Source: Spirogloea muscicola (taxonomy: Eukaryota; Streptophyta; Zygnematophyceae; Spirogloeales; Spirogloeaceae). Taken from it: DNA of 40,917 bases. Within the stretch, counting starts at the first letter, position 1, and the number at the start of each line of letters is the position of its first letter. A program made the position numbers and the translations under genes. The notes beneath the pieces were generated by a model. It worked only from the letters and a program-made list of their open reading frames with translations. It was not told where the DNA came from and searched no databases. Location: the NCBI GenBank assembly GCA_009602725.1, contig WELB01000047.1, forward strand, positions 759,746 to 800,662, given 5' to 3'. Positions 8,945 through 40,236 of the stretch are shown here, in pieces.

Positions 8945-9470
8945 ACCCCTTAGACGGAAGGGCCTCGCCCATGGAGGATAGGGGCTGCAAAAGCCAGCCC
9001 ATAAAAGAATGAACAAAGTACGAGAAGGGGGCCAGGAAAAGCGCTAGGAAAAAGAAGCACAACAAGAAACAAAGCAGCTACGTATTACTCAGTAATCTCT
9101 GCTAAGCAGCCACAGGTCAGAGAAGCTAGGCTCCTGGAAGTGGGTCCCTGGCCAGAGCCAGAGACAGCAGCGAGGGCTCAACCGGCACGCAGGTGCAGCG
9201 TGCGGGCCATTGACCTCTGCAGCGAGACGGCCAAGCGCATCCGGTACACCCGCGCTAGCGACCCGGCTGCATGAAAGTCCACTGATTCCCCATGGAAGCG
9301 GCGGACCATGGCATGGCGGGCGAGCTGGTTGAGCAGCTCGAGCGCCCAACGCCCCATGCATGTCGATAGCCAGCGGGAAGAACTCGTCTTGAAGGGAAGG
9401 GCTCGCCCGTAGAAAAAGAGGGGCTAGCAAAGCCAGCCCAGAAAAGAATGGACATTGTCCGCAGCCGATG
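8945..9470 (-). mobile_element. LINE fragment, minus strand, frameshifted
   Basis: On the minus strand the fragment reads LAIDMHGALG, then, after frame changes, a segment resembling GSLARVYRMRLAVSLQRS and LHLRAG. This is the same C-terminal domain seen at 34560-34990 and 28350-28700. Hairpin modules flank it at 8951-9020 and 9391-9460. Frameshifts show it is dead. Confidence 0.65.
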
Positions 9471-11134: not shown

Positions 11135-11810
11135 CAGACTCCTGGAAAGAAGGGAGCTCTTCCAGAAGGGGGCGGGGGCTGTGAATGGCCAGCCCAAAAA
11201 GACTGAACAAGGGTCAAATGGCCAAAAGGCGGCAATACTACACAGCTATGCAAGAGACTACAGCGATTGGAGCTCAGTAAGCCCGAGTCACCAGCCACAA
11301 GTGGGAGTGACTTGCAAGTCGGAGTGAGTTGCAACTTGCACTCCTGGAAGAGTCTACCTTTCCTCAATGTAGAAAGTGGCTCTCCCAGAGGATGAAGTGT
11401 GTATTAAGGAAATGGAGTGTGTATTGAGAGATGGAGGGCCTGTGTGGCCAAGTACAAAGGCAAGCACATTGACAAATGTACGTCACCTGCTGCTCAGCTG
11501 ACCCGCTCAGTAACCACGAGTCAGCACATAGAGGTCGCTAATTGATGCCTGAATACCGGACGGCAATCGACAAGCTCTTGAGCTACCAGCTAAGGCTCGA
11601 CCAGCTTTCTGATGCAACGCATGAGCCTGAGCTCGCTGCAGACAAGCTGACACACGACGTTGCAATCAAGAAAAATTGAGGGAGGGAGGGCCGGTGTGGC
11701 CAAGTGTACGAAGGCAAGCGTATTGGCAGATAGAGGGGGCAAGGGCTGTGAACAGGCAGCCCGAAAAGCATTGACAAGGTCCGACGGGGCCAGAAATTGC
11801 TCTGAGACGA
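11135..11810 (-). mobile_element. LINE 3'-end cluster with both tail types
   Basis: Hairpin modules on the minus strand lie at 11150-11225 and 11735-11805. Between them are the alternative GGCC-hairpin tail (11390-11480) and a coding fragment (11524-11652) nearly identical to 3918-4048. The arrangement suggests nested insertion of related elements. Confidence 0.65.
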
Positions 11811-12351: not shown

Positions 12352-15300
12352 GTGCTGAGCGCGAGGCGGAGCTGCCCCCCGACGCCGTCAGCAAGTCCGT
12401 CGCCCGCCCATCCCACCGCTTCTGCCGTGCCATGCCTGAGTCGGTCTGTAGCCTCGAGCTGTTCTTGGCAGCAGCCGGGGGTGAGACCCCATCTCCGGCG
12501 GCCGCGCAATGGGCGCCTCCATCCCCTCGGGGCTGACTCTGCCGGGTGCGGGCCTGGCCGCGGCAGCAGGTCGAGCTCCTTCTCCTGGTCCAAGGAGCTG
12601 GCCGAGACGCAGTACGAGCGGCTCTCCCGCGACCCTTCCCGGCGCGGAGTGAGTGCCACGACAAACCCCTTCCTCATGAGCGTCAGCCCCTCAGCCCACG
12701 GTGCTTCTCGAAGACATAGACAAGCCTGCCACGTCTCTGACAGACCGGCTTGATCTAGGTGCAACCCGTTTGCATGTTGTCCCGTACTTAGGCACTGCAC
12801 TACTTTGACCTGTCACTAGAAACATCCGAGGTGCTTCAGATGGCATGTGGGCCGGCTGAGGCGGCAATGTAGGTGACAGGTGTGCTACGCCGCCTTCTTC
12901 TTGCCTCTGACAGGGGGACGGTGAGCACAGCGAGGACCAAAGCAGACGAAGCGACCCGACACAAGCGAGGAAGCAGATGGAGACGACGGGCAGCGACTTC
13001 GGTTATGACGCGGAGGAGGTGTCGTTTCCCCTCCAGGGCTTTGGAGCTCGAGTGCAGCCAGTGACAAGCCCCCGAGGGCCAACGCCCACTCCTGGTGGCC
13101 TTCTTGACGGCAGCCCACATGACGCAGCCCGGCAGACTGAGCAGGACAGGGCTGTGGCTGGTAATGCGAGCGCGTCCGGTCACGCCTCGCCCTTGCCACA
13201 AGGCCCGAGATCGCGCACCGCAAAGGAGCGCTGGAAGAGGCTGAGGCATACCGTCACTTTTGCCAACCAGGTCAGTGTGCCTGGTGTTGTTAGCAATGCG
13301 GGAAATTCACTTAGCCCGTGATATTGTATAGTCACACCTGCTGAAGAGCGCAGCCTCAGGATGGCTTGAGTATTGTCAAAATTCTTTGTCGCTCCTCTTT
13401 GCAGATGGGGGCAACGCTGAAGGCTGGCAATGATATACTGATGGACGAGAGCGTGGCGACCGCGATCCACGCTTCAGAAAGTAATCAGACCAAGAAGGAT
13501 GCCAATAACGCGAAGCCCGGGCCTGTCTTTAGGAAGATGGGCCGGAGTGCAATGGATGGCCTAAAAGTCAAGCACGACAAGGCCATGGTCTGCTTCTTGG
13601 CAGACTTCTACGTTGGTTGCCTCAAGGTGCTCGCAAGTCAGCGTGCTCTTCTGCCAACACCAACGCCAAGTTGTAGCCCGGCTAACCAAGTCGATTCCGT
13701 TATGTGGTGTCTGGTGACATCATTGTGCATGCGCTTCACCAATCCTTGCCTCATCAGATGCATCCTGCTACCCTCTATGACATACCACATAGAGGCGCAT
13801 GAGGAGTTTATCAAATGTGATCACATTTTCCCAACGAGTTCCTTCAGAGCCAACCTGTGGACTTGTGTATGACCTACTCAAGGTAGTGATTCTGACCATG
13901 TCCAAGAGGAGCCTCTCATTGTACTTCCCTTGTGTTTCCTGTCCAGACTCCTCCACACATATTTCTACTCGGGGTCTTGGTGGCACCAGTCCTACTTGGA
14001 TTTCTCTTCACACCAGCATTTCTGTTGGGGTTGGACGGCCTCAGCTTCGAGGATGGCATCATTGCCAATTCAGGAGACTGCACAGCAATGACATTCAGTC
14101 AAAGCTGCATGTGGGCTGCCAAGAGGAACTTCTCCATTGTTCTCAACGTCTTCCTCTATGCGTAAGATCCTGCTCTCCAGACCACAGACATCGCATCAAG
14201 CAGTGTTGCGAGATCAGTATTCAGTGTCGACTACGCAAATGCTGAGCTGAATCCAAACATAAGGAACGTGTACTGTGAGATGCAGCTACTTTGTGACTGA
14301 GTCGAAGCAAAGCAACAGTCGCATTGTTGACCTTCAAATTCCAATTTTGTAAGCATTAGCCAGTGGCCGAGGCCAATGTTCAAAGCCGACCAGCTGAGGA
14401 GTAGTTACCTGCCTTCGCACAGTTGTCTTTGGCATCATGGCTTAGGACATTGCGTGTAGGCAATTAGTGACTATGTGAGTCTTCTCCTTAAGATCACTGT
14501 CCTGTGCAGGCTATCCTTGTCCACCACCTTCGGAGGGTCCCCAGTTTCAGCAAGATCGCCATACTGCCTCCTCGTGGCAAATTGCAATACCCTCATGGCC
14601 CAGTTCCTATTTGTCTTCCTCTCGGGTGCTGTGTTCGCGCGGATGTCTCAGCCATCCCAGCCTGTCAGATGCTCCAGGAAGGCCATCATCAAGGAGGACG
14701 ATTATGTCAACACCATTGCAAATGCAGGGAAGCCCAAAGGGACGCACAAGTACGTGCTTATACGCAGCACTGCCTCAGGATTAGTCCCGATTCCCTCGCA
14801 GCTGTTCTCATCCTTGTGAAGATATGACTGGTTTGACCTGTGGATGTACTGACTTGCCTTCATCAGAAGCCTTGTGGCACATGTCTTAGCATGACATCCT
14901 TGGTGTCCTCTGCAGGGTGTTTGTGATGCGCTTGGTTCTTGTGGGACCCCATCCTTGCGAGCTGGTGGATGTAAAAATTACTGTCACTTTCAGGATCTTC
15001 ATCAAGCTGCCTAGCGGATCCTTCTTCTGTAGCACGCACAATCTTGACTTGGTCAGGTCTGAGGTAAGAGCCGCAATCTGCAGCCTCGCCTGCCCCTGGA
15101 AGATTGATTTGTGTAGCCTGTTAGTCGCGTGAATTATTATTCTAGACCTGCGTATGTCACGCAGCACTTCCTCACTGTCATGCTCAAACATTTGTGTATG
15201 TCTGGCAGAACTCACTTCATTAACTCCTGGTCACTTGTCCAGGTTGCTCACCTTCGATATGGATTCCTTGTACGACACGTGATAGCACCAGAGTCCCCGC

Positions 15301-16176
15301 TCTTTGGACATACACGTGAGACTATGGCTGATAGCGACGCATCCTTCTCCGTGTCGATTGTGGGCATGGAGCGGACGTCCATGACGTCCATTTTCCACAT
15401 GCAGGTCCGCCACTGGGCTCACTGCTTACGAGGTGTTGATGCACTCTGATTCCGTGGAACCGTAGTGATGTAGCTCGACTTTGCAGATCTGAACAAAGCA
15501 TGCGCGTTTGAGACAGTGAAGTTCCATGCTTGTACAGGAGTACTTCGTTCATGACAATGACGTCATCTGGGATGGCGACTTTGTGGACTTCGTGAGCCTT
15601 GATGAACACGGGCACAAGGTCATGGACCATGCCAAGATCGATCAGATCAGGACCTTCAAGGTGTGTTAAAGCTGCTGACTGACTGGTTTGGATGCTTCTG
15701 TCCTCGAAATTTGGCGCAGAGTATGAATTTGACGACCACGCTTTGCACGTCATATCTGCATGGCAGCCTGCAGTGTGCAGATATTTATATGAGCTAAGCA
15801 GTGAGCCTGCAACTCAATCTCCTCTTCGATCTCTCAATTGGACTGTTGTATACAGAGTGTGGGCGTAGCGAGCCAGGCCATCAGCAGGATGCACGCAGAC
15901 GTTGAGAAGCGGAAGCAGCTGTGGAAGCTTGGGGGGTCCTTCGGGGACAACAGCGATGATGACAACGGCGACTCTGCCCTCAATAGTGAAACGGCTGCAA
16001 CACAGGAGGATGGCAAAAGTGGCAGCAGCTTGCAAGCCTGGGTAGGCGCTACTCTGGAAGGCAAATCCATGTCATGGGCCAGAAAGCAGTGGGCCATGCG
16101 ATCGCTCTCCTTCAAGTGGAGCTGCTACAGTCAAGAGCCTGACGTCCTGCCTATGGAGGAAAAAAAGTCCGAGTAG
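12352..16176 (+). CDS. Inward-rectifier (Kir) type potassium channel
   Basis: Membrane ion channel subunit. Exons: an uncertain first exon ending at 12648, then 12914-13270, 13405-13626, 13947-14161, 14510-14749, 14916-15063, 15243-15404, 15538-15660 and 15856-16176; all later junctions agree in phase. From 12914 the protein has 595 residues. A polar N-terminus leads to a slide helix (LADFYVGCLK), TM1 (FLLGVLVAPVLLGFLF, about 198-222), a pore loop, and TM2 ending in FLSGAVFARMSQPSQ, which matches the Kir GAVMAKMAKP segment. The cytoplasmic immunoglobulin-like Kir domain follows, with LRYGFLVRHVI, PESPLFG, SMTSIFHMQEYF, VIWDGDFVDFVSL and KIDQIRTF. The filter reads TTFGGS where TTIGYG or TTIGFG is expected. 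The true start is unresolved: the GC-rich first exon is open in more than one frame. Family assignment is strong; ion selectivity is unknown. Confidence 0.85.
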
Positions 16177-27440: not shown

Positions 27441-28330
27441 GAGAAGGGCTCGCCCATTGAGGATCGGGGATGGGAAAAGCCAGCCAAAAGCAGAAGGGAA
27501 CAAAGTACTGAGGAGGAGGCCGGGTTTAGCAGCACGGAGAGTCCAGAAAGAGCAAGCGCGGCCAGATTAACTGGTGGCTGGGAGAGGCCAGCCCAAAAGA
27601 ATGGACAAGGTCTGAAGGAGTCGGAGTGCCAGAGGAAGGCCAGTGCGACGACTGGGGCTCCGAGAACAATGCACACGTTGGCAGGCGGGGGCGGCCCTCT
27701 GGCGGCGACCGGCCACGCGGGGTGCTCCCGTCCCCGCCTGCAGGGGAGGCGCCACCGTCTTGCCGCCCTGCTGGATGAGCAGGCGGCCCGCCAGCACCGC
27801 CCGGTGGAGCCGATCGGACGGCACCTGGAGCGGGCGACTGGCCGGTTCCGCCGTCGGCCGCCTGACCCTGTGGGCCGCCCTGACCTGCCGCCACATTCAG
27901 CGCCAGCCGGCACTCCAGCCGTGCCGGTCTAGCGGCACGGTCGAGTTGACGTTGACTCCTCCTGGCTCCTCAAGACCTCACTCCCTTTCCCTCCCCCCCT
28001 CGCCCCCCTTTGGCAGAGCCACTTTCTCTTTGATGCTAATGGCTTCCGTGGTGGTGGTCTGGCTCCTCCTCAACTTAGCTTGTCAGATATGTATGTGCTC
28101 ACTCGCGGATATTAGTGTCCCCCTTAACCAGCTCATTAACCCCGTTACCAGAACATTTGTGAGGCTAGAATTGGCCTCCCTTTCAATTTCATGTGCACCG
28201 CACGCCTTCTCTCTTTGATCGAGCGCCCACGCGCAGTAAGTCAGAGAGTAAGTTGTGGATTGCGCCTTCCGGCACTTTCGGGCCTGTGAAAGGCCAGCCC
28301 AAAAAGAATGAGCAAGGTCTAGATGGCCGA
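27440..28330. mobile_element. LINE fragments in both orientations
   Basis: Minus-oriented hairpin modules lie at 27440-27510, 27555-27625 and 28265-28325. A plus-oriented GC-rich remnant (27640-28130) ends with a coding-end signature reading SDMYVLTRGY in modified form near 28083-28115. The 27555-27617 module is close to the copy embedded in the telomere-like array at 40827. Open frames crossing these junctions are chimeric. Confidence 0.6.
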
Positions 28331-35371: not shown

Positions 35372-38300
35372 ATGGAGGAGCTGGAGCTGCTGCGCGCGCA
35401 GCGCAGCCGCATGAAGGAGCGCCTGGCCTTCCGCAAGTCCTGGCTGGAGTCGTCGACTGCGGATGCCGCGCCTGTGAGCAGCGATGGTGGCCCCCAGCGC
35501 AAGCGGGACAGAGGCAACCACCCCAGCGGCAGCTGGAGTTGGAGTGGAGCACCCGACGGGGGCCCTCAGAGGCCGCCGCATGCTCTGGGTGCCACTGAGG
35601 GGCTGGAACAGGCAATTGCCGTGCTCCTGCAATCGCCAGGTCCAAGCGCCGCCGTCTGTCGCCCTGCCTTGAGGACTGCTTGAGGAGCACGTGCCCCACT
35701 TGTGCAGGATTCAGCCTCGACTGATTCTTAAGCCCTTGATTACAAGCTGGCGGAGGTTGAGAGCTGTTGCTCAAGTCGCAACTAGCTGCGCCTGAATTGG
35801 TGACCGTGCGCCACTGCGCACTTCATGGATGAGATGATGGTGAAGTCAGTGGGGTGAAGTTAAGCCTCTTACGTGCCTGTGCAGGCTTGAGCGGGCCCAT
35901 GGACTCGACAGGGATCTACCGCAGGCTGGCGCGGGATAGCAGCCACGTGCTCGTGGATTTTGGTGGTGACGAAGTTGCTGCGATAGCGGCCGTTGAGAAG
36001 GCACTCAGGTTAGGGCCTCTTGATCTTCTGCCAAAGCGTCCGAGTGCAGAGCTGCTAAATCTGCACCCACGTGTGCGGACGAGTCTGAGGCCTTTGGCAC
36101 AGAGAGGTGTTCATGAGTTGATCATGATTAGGACAAGGAAGAGTTTCAGAGCAATTTAATTGATTCTTAGGCCCAGTTATATGTGCACGACATATGATGT
36201 GTGCAGGTCAGGTCAGGTGCTCACATTTCAGAGCAAATTCTCCACTGTACCTATCTGTTTCAGAGTCAGTGAAGTGGTAGGTGATTGATGCAGCTGACCC
36301 AAGCTTGGTGGTATCTCTAAGAGGCGCTCGAAGACCACTTTCTTGCACCCACCTTATCTAAGCTCATGGGCATCGTCGATTAGTCCTCGTCGCACTTGTA
36401 TCAGCATTCCGTGCACCCTGGTTACAGGTCGCTGGCAGGAGGAGCACAGCCTTGCCTGGAGTTGGAGGAGTTTGTCGTGGGAGGAAAGCCACGGCTTATG
36501 GTCTTAGGCAAGCTTCAGCTTCTCTGTTGGTCGTGTATGGCTTCACTCAGTGCTATCAGGATTGAAGTATGGCAGGACTTGACTGATTTCTATGCCTCAG
36601 TAATAGCATCAGAGGTCAGTAATGCCAGAAGACATATGCCAACCTTAATTGCTTACAACAACCAGACCTGTTGTGTCTTGCAGAACGTGATCACAGCCGT
36701 CTCAGTCAGCGCTTACAGATTCTGCATCATGGTGAGCCATGCCATGGGTAGGGGGCTTGCATTGACAGAGCCCAGCATCAGAAGCACTTGATGCCTCTGT
36801 CTAGAGGCCAGGACTTCAACCTAATACCAGGGATTCTCCAGGTGATGCAAGGACAAGCCCGAGCACACATGGAATACTGCATAGGAGCCTTCTCGGTGGA
36901 AGGCCTGAAGAGTCAATGTGGGCAGTGGAGGACAGCTTCAGAAATAAGGTGCAGGGAGCTGCTGGCAAGTGGGGACTGGAGGAGCTGCTGTCCAAGAAGT
37001 CGTACAAGGAAGAGCAGAAGACTAAGACGGGCACGGACCTTTTGGAGCTTCTGCAAAAGCCCACAGCTAAAGAGAGCGCTGTGGCTGCTAAGGTGCACCA
37101 CTGACGATCAATGTGCCTACCTATACTGTGTCGCCATTGCGCTTGAAGACTTGGTTTGGTCTGTGTTCCCTGCGGCAGCTGCGGAGAATTAATAGGTCAT
37201 TGTCAAGCTGAGCGGGCAAGAGATTAGACTCCTGTGCTCTCTTTAGCTTGTACATGGTCGCAGCAGGTGGGTTAAGCCCTGCTCATCCACTCTCTTCGCG
37301 GCGCTGCTCATGACATGCGCCTGTGCATATCCGTTGCAGTTCAAAAGTAAAGGAGGCTCTATAGTGAAAGAGTATTGCCCGTACCTCACTAAGGAAGACT
37401 GTGTACGGCACCTAGGGCAATATGCCCACTGCAGAAAGGTGTCTGCCGCCTCAAGCTGCTGTATGAGCTAGCAGTGCAACCGTTGAGAGATAGCTCTTTG
37501 TTGACATATCCTTGTGGAAGACTGGGAATGTCGTGAAAGTAGCCCACTTGTTCCAAGATCGTAAGCATTAGATGACAAGTAGTGACCTTTGATGTGCAAG
37601 GTGCATTTCCGACGGATAATAGCGCCCCACACAGACGCCAACCTTGGGGACTGCTCATTTCTTGATACTTGCCGCCACATGAAGGTTGTCAGCATGTCCA
37701 CTTCAAGCCAGCAACATGCAGATGTGTGGACGAGGACAACGAGCATAGTTACTAGTGGGGCATTCCCCCGCATTATTAAAACAATGTGTACCACATTGTT
37801 CTCTATCTGTCATTGTTGTTGAGTAGCGTGCATGATTGTTGCTCTTTCATTGGCCGCCAAAGAAACGCGTGGAGACAAGTCACTCTAGAGGTAGGACACC
37901 AACCTTAACCCAAGCCTATAACCTGCACTAGGTACTGAGCTACTTATATCGTGCCTGCAGACTTGTAAGTATGTCCATTATGAGTTGGACAATCAGGCAG
38001 GGAGGGATGCATTGCACGAGGCTATACTGGGCCACTACCAAAGAGCTCAATACTGCTCTGAAGTCGAATTGGGAGAACCACAGTGGATCAACTGTGACAT
38101 TCGGACATTCAAGGTGGAAGTTCTCGGGCAGTTTGGGGTCATCATGGCGGACCCACCCTGGGACATACATATGGAGCTGCCCTATGGCACCATGACAGAT
38201 GACGAGATGAGGAACATGCCCATACCCGTGAGTACATCCGTGTTGCCTGTCGTATCAATTGTCTGCCCATTGAGCAAGACGTGCTTGTGGACTGATATGA

Positions 38301-40236
38301 ACCTTCGACTCTGGGGCTCCACAGTCTGACAAGTACTGACTTGTAAGGACGATAATTTTAAATCACAGTGCAGGGCAGTTTGAAATTAGTACTTCTAGAA
38401 CATCCACTGAGAGAACGTCCTCACTTGAATCACCAGGTGCTTCAAACAGATGGACTTATCTTTCTGTGGGTCACGGGGAGGGCAATGGAACTCGGTCGCG
38501 AATGGTAAGAGTTGGTCAAAATCTAAGCCTGGATCTAGGTGTTCAATGCGCCAAGTGTTTGAATGCACTTGCATTGCGCTACCTCACCTGTCAATAGCAC
38601 CCACAAGTATCTCAACTCGAAGTGAACCACTATGCTTCTGCCACGCCGGCAAGATATGATGGATGATGCTGTTGACTCTTGCTTGGGGGTAGGACAAACA
38701 TTGCCTGCCTATATCTTTCGTTCAGATACTACATCCATTTTCCAAGCCCGTAAGCTGCACAATTTCCAGGTTGTTAGCTTCTATTAGGGCAGTACCAAAA
38801 GTACCATCCAAGGTGAACGGTTTGTATTGGTCTTGAAGAGGCTCTTACGTGTATGTGACTTCTTCACTTCGTGCAACACAGTCTTGAGCTCTGGGGCTAT
38901 CACCGCGTGGAGGAACTCATCTGGGTCAAGACCAACCAGCTCCAGAGGATCATCAGAACAGGAAGGACTGGTCATTGGCTGAACCATTCGAAGGAGCACT
39001 GTCTGGTCGGAATGAAAGGTGACCCAGTGGTCAACCGCAACATTGACACTGATGTGCTTGTGGCGGAGGTCAGGGAGACCAGCCGGAAGCCAGATGAGGT
39101 ATGTAACACTCAAGCTCCCACCACTTTCTTCATAATTAAGGACACACTATATAGATCACAAGGGGTGGCGCTACTGGTATAGTTGGCAAATTACCGTAGT
39201 CTAAGTCTCAGCTGGTGCAGGCTCCGTATGTGAAGCAGAGGGGTGGCCATGTGTCTCTTGCACGGCTAGGTGTTCAGGGTTGCATCTGTGAAGTGTCAAG
39301 ACAATGGACAAGCTCACAGCCAAGACGTGAAAGCCTCATGAGCTCTTGTGCTCTGCTTAAGCACACATTTCAAAGCAGCAAGCTTCATTCACTTGACTGG
39401 AAGGAGCTGTGTCTGTCTACTGTAGTACTAAATTGTCATCTGCAGACCCTGTTGTCTCACTTACATAGATTCTCCAACTTTTGAGCAGATGTACTCCATG
39501 CTAGAGAGGATAAGCCCAAGAACAAGGAAGCTTGAGATATTTGCCAGGCCTCACAACACCCATGCTGGGTGTGTTGACAGGCTCCTTCTCCAGGCTTTCC
39601 ACTCTCTAGTTAGCATCGAGATTCTCTATTTGGAATGTTCCACCACACAGCAGATAGAATTGTTCTCAAGTATGGGCTTGCCAAATTGGCCACATGATGA
39701 TGTCTTCATGGTTGTCACTGTTGCTCTTAGACCCTTCTTGGCTGCTGGTTCAGGATGCTTACAGCGTCCTGAGTGCATCCTCTCTCTGAATATTTTGCAC
39801 GGTAACTACCGCTTAGAGATCCAATCTGATATTCTTGTCTTGGCCGAGTGACAGATGGATTTCTCTTGGTAATCAGCTGGATGGAGTGAGGCTTGTTGAC
39901 AAGGGGATGAGGGACCGATTCAAGGCGGTCTACCCCGAAGTCTCTGTGAAGCCGCTTGAGGACATCACGTTGGAGGAGACTCAAGCTCAAGCTTCCAGTG
40001 ATCAACTGAGAGAGGCTCTTCCCTATCTTAATCACGATGAAAGCTTGAGTCCAAGCACTAGCACATATTCGCATGTTAGCCGCAATACTGGTGGTGCCAG
40101 CAGTAAATTTTCAGTTGGCGATGAGCAAGACACAGTTACAGGCTCACAGTTTAGTTCCAACTTTGGGTTGGCTGCGGACAACGATGTCCACAAACAAATA
40201 CTTCTATCCAATTCTCATATTACTGAATATACTTAA
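35372..40236 (+). CDS. METTL3: METTL3, mRNA N6-adenosine methyltransferase catalytic subunit
   Basis: Catalytic subunit of the nuclear m6A writer, normally paired with METTL14. Firm exons: 35372-35639, 35885-36008, one ending 37092, 37340-37438, 37601-37684, 37961-38227, 38437-38504, 38882-39098, 39489-39568 and 39855-40236; all phase together. Likely extra exons are 36428-36614 and 36684-36731; the span from 36732 to about 36925 is unresolved. The N-terminus is [32 protein letters not shown] and [11 protein letters not shown] precede two CCCH-type zinc fingers ([10 protein letters not shown]...HC..VH, then DCSFLDTC...TCKYVH). The MT-A70 domain has the catalytic DPPW at 38150-38161, [44 protein letters not shown] and [10 protein letters not shown] tail of about 90 polar residues follows, longer than I expect for the family. 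All catalytic landmarks are intact. Confidence 0.95.

Follow-up and report, generated by a model that had tools for sequence, protein, structure and literature searches.

The window, a stretch of 40,917 nucleotides from the zygnematophycean alga Spirogloea muscicola, contains a phase-clean gene of eight exons on the forward strand (12977-16176, stop codon TAG), which encodes a Kir-type protein of 574 amino acids (Table 1). All seven introns are GT/AG and the frame is open throughout the 574 codons; the start codon is a choice, as the open frame reaches upstream to 12911. A sequence-only reading of this DNA had described phase-perfect splicing between 14161 and 14510 and a selectivity filter devoid of its aromatic residue, and the gene model agrees on both counts. 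The junction is in phase (GC/G, encoding Ala244), the spliced product reads YALSLSTTFGGSPVSARSPY, the pore sequence across the junction in the spliced frame is FLYALSLSTTFGGSPVSARSPYCLLVANCNTLMAQFLFVFLSGAVFARMSQP, and TTFGGSP occupies the filter. The same exon structure and filter recur in two near copies elsewhere in the genome (C66 and C46), which excludes a local sequencing error. In all three copies the filter codons GGA GGG TCC are identical, while flanking codons differ synonymously.

Table 1 Coordinates of the Kir-type gene in the window and of the canonical Kir loci in the same genome
Feature	Position	Strand	Content	Basis
Exon 1	12977..13270	+	aa 1-98, cytoplasmic N-terminus	
Exon 2	13405..13626	+	aa 99-172, Kir N-terminal/slide-helix part (GRSAMDGLKVKHDKAMVCFLADFYVGCLK)	
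Exon 3	13947..14161	+	aa 173-244, TM1, turret, start of pore helix	hydropathy
Exon 4	14510..14749	+	aa 244-323, end of pore helix, filter, TM2, linker	KirBac alignment
Selectivity filter TTFGGSP (Thr249-Pro255)	14523..14543	+	replaces T(T)xGYGx	
TM2 (about aa 261-289)	14559..14645	+	includes Phe286	hydropathy, alignment
Exon 5	14916..15063	+	aa 324-373, cytoplasmic Kir domain	
Exon 6	15243..15404	+	aa 374-427, cytoplasmic Kir domain; IRK_C match begins at aa 380	
Exon 7	15538..15660	+	aa 428-468, end of cytoplasmic Kir domain	
Exon 8	15856..16176	+	C-terminal tail, TAG stop	
Canonical TIGYG Kir, three copies	C5:886480, C41:77991, C54:484445	-		

No canonical filter could be recovered by splicing intron 3 differently. 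Among pairs of GT donors (14100-14399) and AG acceptors (14200-14559) at least 40 bases apart, none gives an open-frame [TS]xG[YFLWH]G, so the alternative acceptor that the earlier reading had entertained was not encountered among the pairs tried. Between 12900 and 16250, the three forward frames together contain six G[aromatic/L/H]G-like matches, none of them in frame at the pore: an in-frame GFG at 13037 belongs to the N-terminus, an out-of-frame TRGLG at 13964 lies in the TM1 exon, and the remaining four are likewise out of place.

Elsewhere in the window we observed dispersed repeats of about 165-430 bases (2171-2335, 8964-9390, 11406-11572 and 28035-28213); their counterparts, at 82-89% identity, lie close to the paralogues of C288, C42 and C8 and also on C36. 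A match on C36 (E 0.17) was discarded as a chance match within such a repeat. The motif GGGGCTGTGA...CAGCCC recurs around 11175 and 18015. At 37922-38326 on the forward strand, an open frame with DPPW weakly resembles MT-A70 methyltransferases (PF05063, 14.4 bits, cut-off 23.9); one other copy of this exon was found, on C267.

The Kir homology proposed from the letters alone holds up in database searches. With the window protein as the only query, phmmer placed KirBac1.1 and KirBac3.1 at the top of the PDB matches (best E 4e-11) and matched animal Kir2.2 weakly (E 0.002), and a profile built from seven relatives reached E about 2e-16 for KirBac and 2e-9 for animal Kir. Hydropathy in 19-residue windows delimits hydrophobic segments at aa 166-207 and 261-291 and a shorter one (233-254) at the pore helix; together with the KirBac/Kir alignment, this gives two transmembrane helices flanking a re-entrant pore helix. 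Colinearity with KirBac1.1 and KirBac3.1 (1p7b, 2x6b; phmmer E about 5e-11) covers the pore helix, the filter, TM2 and the cytoplasmic domain; TFGGS takes the place of TVGYG/TIGYG, and the cytoplasmic domain of the window protein carries an insertion. Recognition of the immunoglobulin-like cytoplasmic domain is narrow: IRK_C (PF17655), the sole Pfam match at E<=10, lies barely above its cut-off (23.2 vs 22.5 bits), and the transmembrane model IRK (PF01007) had no match at that threshold. IRK_C exceeded its cut-off in four of the five non-canonical proteins scanned (the window protein, C117 at 31.9 bits, C42 at 26.1 and C8 at 24.9, with C288 falling below at 20.8), whereas IRK matched none of these five; C46 and C66 were left out of the scans.

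Two features of TM2 bear on gating. The phenylalanine of AVF[AQ]R (Phe286 of the window protein) is kept in all seven members of the clade described below, and we take it to be the gate phenylalanine at the bundle crossing, at the position of KirBac1.1 F146. The basic RP(K/R) motif that follows TM2 is replaced by SQPS or SQPA in every member, so that the end of TM2 reads ARMSQPSQP in the window protein and ARFARPRAK in KirBac. Animal Kir channels use this basic motif for PIP2; it corresponds to ARPKKR in Kir2.2 and to SRPTRRA in the canonical Kir of the alga. Since a PIP2-type motif is absent from all seven proteins, gating must differ from that of animal Kir. The description of the remaining channel as well kept is thus too strong, given the stretch after TM2 and the missing IRK match. 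The window protein and its two near copies also contain turret cysteines (Cys217 and Cys226, window 14079-14108) and Cys263 in SPYC (14565-14567). The cysteine after the filter is limited to this trio, being absent from C117, C42, C8 and C288. These positions presumably fall near the disulfide sites of eukaryotic Kir, and a similar disulfide is possible, though the case is weak.

Between the pore helix and the conserved proline that follows TM2, the alignment of KirBac1.1 (1p7b) with the window protein is ungapped and sets TVGYGD opposite TFGGSP; a MAFFT alignment of 17 sequences agrees. The change from GYG to GGS is hence a substitution, of tyrosine by glycine and of the second glycine by serine. 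Of the two routes that the earlier reading had offered, a rebuilt filter and a deleted aromatic residue, the former is correct and the latter is ruled out by the ungapped alignment, from which it follows that nothing was deleted in this filter. A deletion of one residue does occur at the filter of C42, C8 and C288, which are sister lineages.

Protein homology searches with window-type queries, in which loci were not picked by their filters, identified seven loci of this type in the 153 Mb genome: C47 (the window), C46, C66, C117, C42, C8 and C288. This census is a lower bound, as first searches missed the canonical Kir loci; further weak matches (C256, C266, C97 and C181) lie at E 0.1 to 4. 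The K+ signature TxGYG/GFG is absent from all seven loci, each of which lacks the aromatic residue as well as the second glycine. In the spliced models two filter classes replace it: [TM][FY]GGSP, as TTFGGSP in the window, C46 and C66 and TMYGGSP in C117, and T[GS]LQ[PT][ED], as TGLQPE in C42 and C8 and TSLQTD in C288. S-L-x-T at the end of the pore helix and many TM2 residues are invariant across the seven. The pore exons are certain in all models; uncertainty attaches to small upstream exons of C117 (17 and 19 bases), to a 12-base exon of C288, and to the turret of C42 and C8, where the exon end was placed differently in two alignments. In a tree of 17 rows (16 different), a branch with 100/100 support sets the seven members apart from all other rows, and C117 joins the window trio with support 95/95, indicating that the GG filter class follows descent. 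Its long branches carry the program's warning of possibly false joins, KirBac does not come out as a single group, and the midpoint root serves drawing only. The tree and its alignment include four of 80 KirBac loci retained from 398; these 80 come from Burkholderia and its relatives and were retrieved in part with a GYG-containing pattern, which makes them an unfair baseline for the filter. Three scans of viral contigs based on short peptide patterns found no relatives, and none of the 51 stretches matched by the pattern in prokaryote genomes was confirmed as one.

Copies within the clade are under strong constraint. Core dN/dS among the window copy, C46 and C66 is 0.098, 0.075 and 0.066, in keeping with the earlier view that the gene has not decayed, and that of C42/C8 is 0.068; the N-terminus and C-terminal tail exceed the core in copy pairs. 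Over the 60 codons of the pore (aa 241-300), none of the three pairs of window-type copies shows a nonsynonymous change, against 7, 7 and 4 synonymous ones. At greater distance, the 52-residue pore block of the window protein and C117 is at synonymous saturation (pS 0.758), and GGSPV and much of TM2 are kept; for C42 and C288 (pS 0.741), LQ and the acidic residue are kept. As judged from these comparisons, both filter classes persist despite saturated synonymous sites. The seven loci represent four independent lineages, not seven. Sets of two or three copies (C46/C47/C66, C5/C41/C54 and C42/C8) share a dS of about 0.10-0.16, a range that points to homeologous chromosomes, to a hybrid or to haplotypes left uncollapsed in the assembly. 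Because the canonical Kir is also present in three copies (dS 0.10-0.15), the window trio may likewise be homeologues or haplotypes.

The same genome contains ordinary K+ channels. A Kir2.2 query found three canonical loci, C5, C41 and C54 (E 3e-6 to 5e-6), which encode SVQTSMTIGYGGELTPDPHCP with the filter SMTIGYGGE, overturning a provisional view that the genome has no canonical Kir. These loci group with animal Kir2.2 (98/98), and their pairs differ by 0, 1 and 1 nonsynonymous changes per 263 codons, a strong constraint. The canonical proteins share the overall Kir plan with the window clade, which is also strongly constrained, yet of the canonical filter, the IRK and IRK_C matches (seen with the C54-type protein) and the basic SRPTRRA, the window clade has only IRK_C, in four of the five proteins scanned. 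Other searches of the genome missed these loci: PF01007 gave no match at E<=0.001 and PF17655 none at E<=1, the controls of the latter being silent too, and a KirBac1.1 query retrieved only fragments of C47, C46 and C66 together with a two-pore K+ channel on C82 (E 0.015-0.125). Among six other ion-channel loci (PF07885), a simple motif scan found TVGYGD in three (L020, L023 and L024). The organism thus makes ordinary K+ filters, the altered clade stands beside them, and, given the coexisting TIGYG Kir, it is a separate lineage and not a decayed sole copy. An animal-like, well-kept Kir sits here in a genome whose photosynthetic nature shows in 68 exon-level matches to PF00504, the light-harvesting family.

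The window gene is therefore a member of a clade of Kir homologues that lacks the K+ signature and bears two conserved alternatives in its place. What such a pore would conduct can be approached from known channels. According to passages of PMC8689586, sites S1-S4 of K+ channels are formed by the backbone carbonyls of TVGYG and the threonine hydroxyl; NaK, with TVGDG, retains two sites equivalent to S3/S4 and is non-selective, and becomes K+-selective with TVGYGD. Weaver GIRK2 (mouse/human Kir3.2), described in part of PMC9001731, loses K+ selectivity within a Kir through a single change of the first filter glycine to serine; weaver is a disease allele affecting one residue, whereas the window filter is fixed, conserved and natural. 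The cyclic nucleotide-gated (CNG) channels are non-selective and carry TIGE in A subunits and TIGG in B subunits, as outlined in sections of PMC10761061, and simulations reported in part of PMC12375067 have Na+/K+ passing the CNGA1 filter in a partly hydrated state. The filter of CNG beta chains in the PDB is TIGGLP in each of five alignments; TFGG and TIGG agree in three of four residues, with phenylalanine for isoleucine, and the filters of CNGB1 and CNGB3 share T-[IF]-G-G-x-P with the window protein. CNG channels have six transmembrane segments, a C-linker and a cyclic-nucleotide-binding domain (PMC10761061, in the sections cited), unlike the two-TM Kir plan of the window protein; the likeness, drawn from a motif of four to six residues, is convergence and not kinship.

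On the precedents of CNG, NaK and weaver, we favour a Kir-gated cation pore that no longer selects for K+ as the likeliest mechanism, although we hold the chance that it is correct to be about even. In this mechanism the K+ signature would have been lost once in the clade, and four subunits would assemble a Kir-type pore. Deprived of the Tyr-Gly carbonyls, this pore could not build the outer K+ sites (S1-S2), and the remaining Thr-Phe-Gly-Gly filter, of the CNG beta type, would be short and wider. Partly hydrated monovalent cations, perhaps with Ca2+, would then permeate without K+ selectivity, and opening would be controlled by the Kir cytoplasmic domain and the TM2 bundle gate. A homotetramer of TFGG subunits might conduct poorly, as it would have no acidic ring: in the account of PMC10761061, the CNG beta TIGG subunit adjoins alpha subunits that draw in cations through a glutamate, and inward current falls markedly once this residue is neutralised. 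The missing acidic residue could come from the LQ[PT][ED] sisters. Co-assembly of neutral TFGG subunits (window, C46, C66 and C117) with acidic LQ[PT][E/D] subunits (C42, C8 and C288) into a Ca2+-permeable or Na+/K+ channel is an improbable extension; if true, it would mirror CNG beta (TIGG) plus alpha (TIGE), and CNG-like permeation would have been invented again on a Kir scaffold.

The main rival to a non-selective pore is a protein that does not conduct at all and is retained for regulation or sensing, as a subunit acting through its conserved cytoplasmic domain. Loss of the signature would be tolerable if conduction were unneeded, and the one clade does contain two unlike replacements, one of them a residue shorter. 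A dead pore would however be expected to drift, and here the pore is the best-kept part of the protein, free of amino-acid change in all three copy pairs, with GGSPV and much of TM2 retained at synonymous saturation and S-L-x-T and many TM2 residues invariant throughout the clade; we consider this explanation unlikely, at perhaps half the weight of the preferred one. Less probable again is a modifier subunit that enters heterotetramers with the canonical TIGYG Kir, lowering its selectivity or silencing it. A three-copy partner is at hand and Kir channels do form heterotetramers, as stated in part of PMC9001731, but the two lines are widely separated in the tree by a long branch, and at E below 0.1 a C42 query and a canonical-Kir query each find their own line alone.

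That the pore is still K+-selective, whether by an unusual arrangement of the filter or by another constriction, is very doubtful. The Kir fold would suit this reading, as would the threonine and first glycine that the filter of the window protein keeps; the aromatic residue and second glycine are nevertheless gone from every locus of the clade, and both NaK (PMC8689586, in part), whose selectivity follows the presence of TVGYGD, and the weaver substitution (PMC9001731, in part) speak against it. Hardly any weight is left for an assembly or splicing artefact concealing a true GYG. The gene model does come from genomic sequence, but the three copies agree in their filter codons amid synonymous changes, none of the splice pairs tried yields a canonical filter, and the paralogue C117 reads MYGGSP inside a single exon.

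Among the papers listed in searches of openly available literature for algal or non-GYG Kir, no title or opening part of an abstract describes an algal Kir without GYG; the clade may occur widely in other eukaryotes and may even be annotated there. A K+ channel survey of Chlorella variabilis and Ectocarpus, as described in part of PMC3369850, screened for GYG, GFG and GLG alongside BLAST, and such a screen would pass over genes of this kind unless the BLAST step caught them. GYG is the customary hallmark of K+ channels; motif screens would miss the clade, as Pfam IRK does (none of five), although IRK_C flags four of five. A naturally selected Kir clade without GYG allows one to test which ions pass a Kir scaffold whose signature was lost through evolution and not through mutagenesis, and the clade may provide algae with a route of entry for Na+ or Ca2+.
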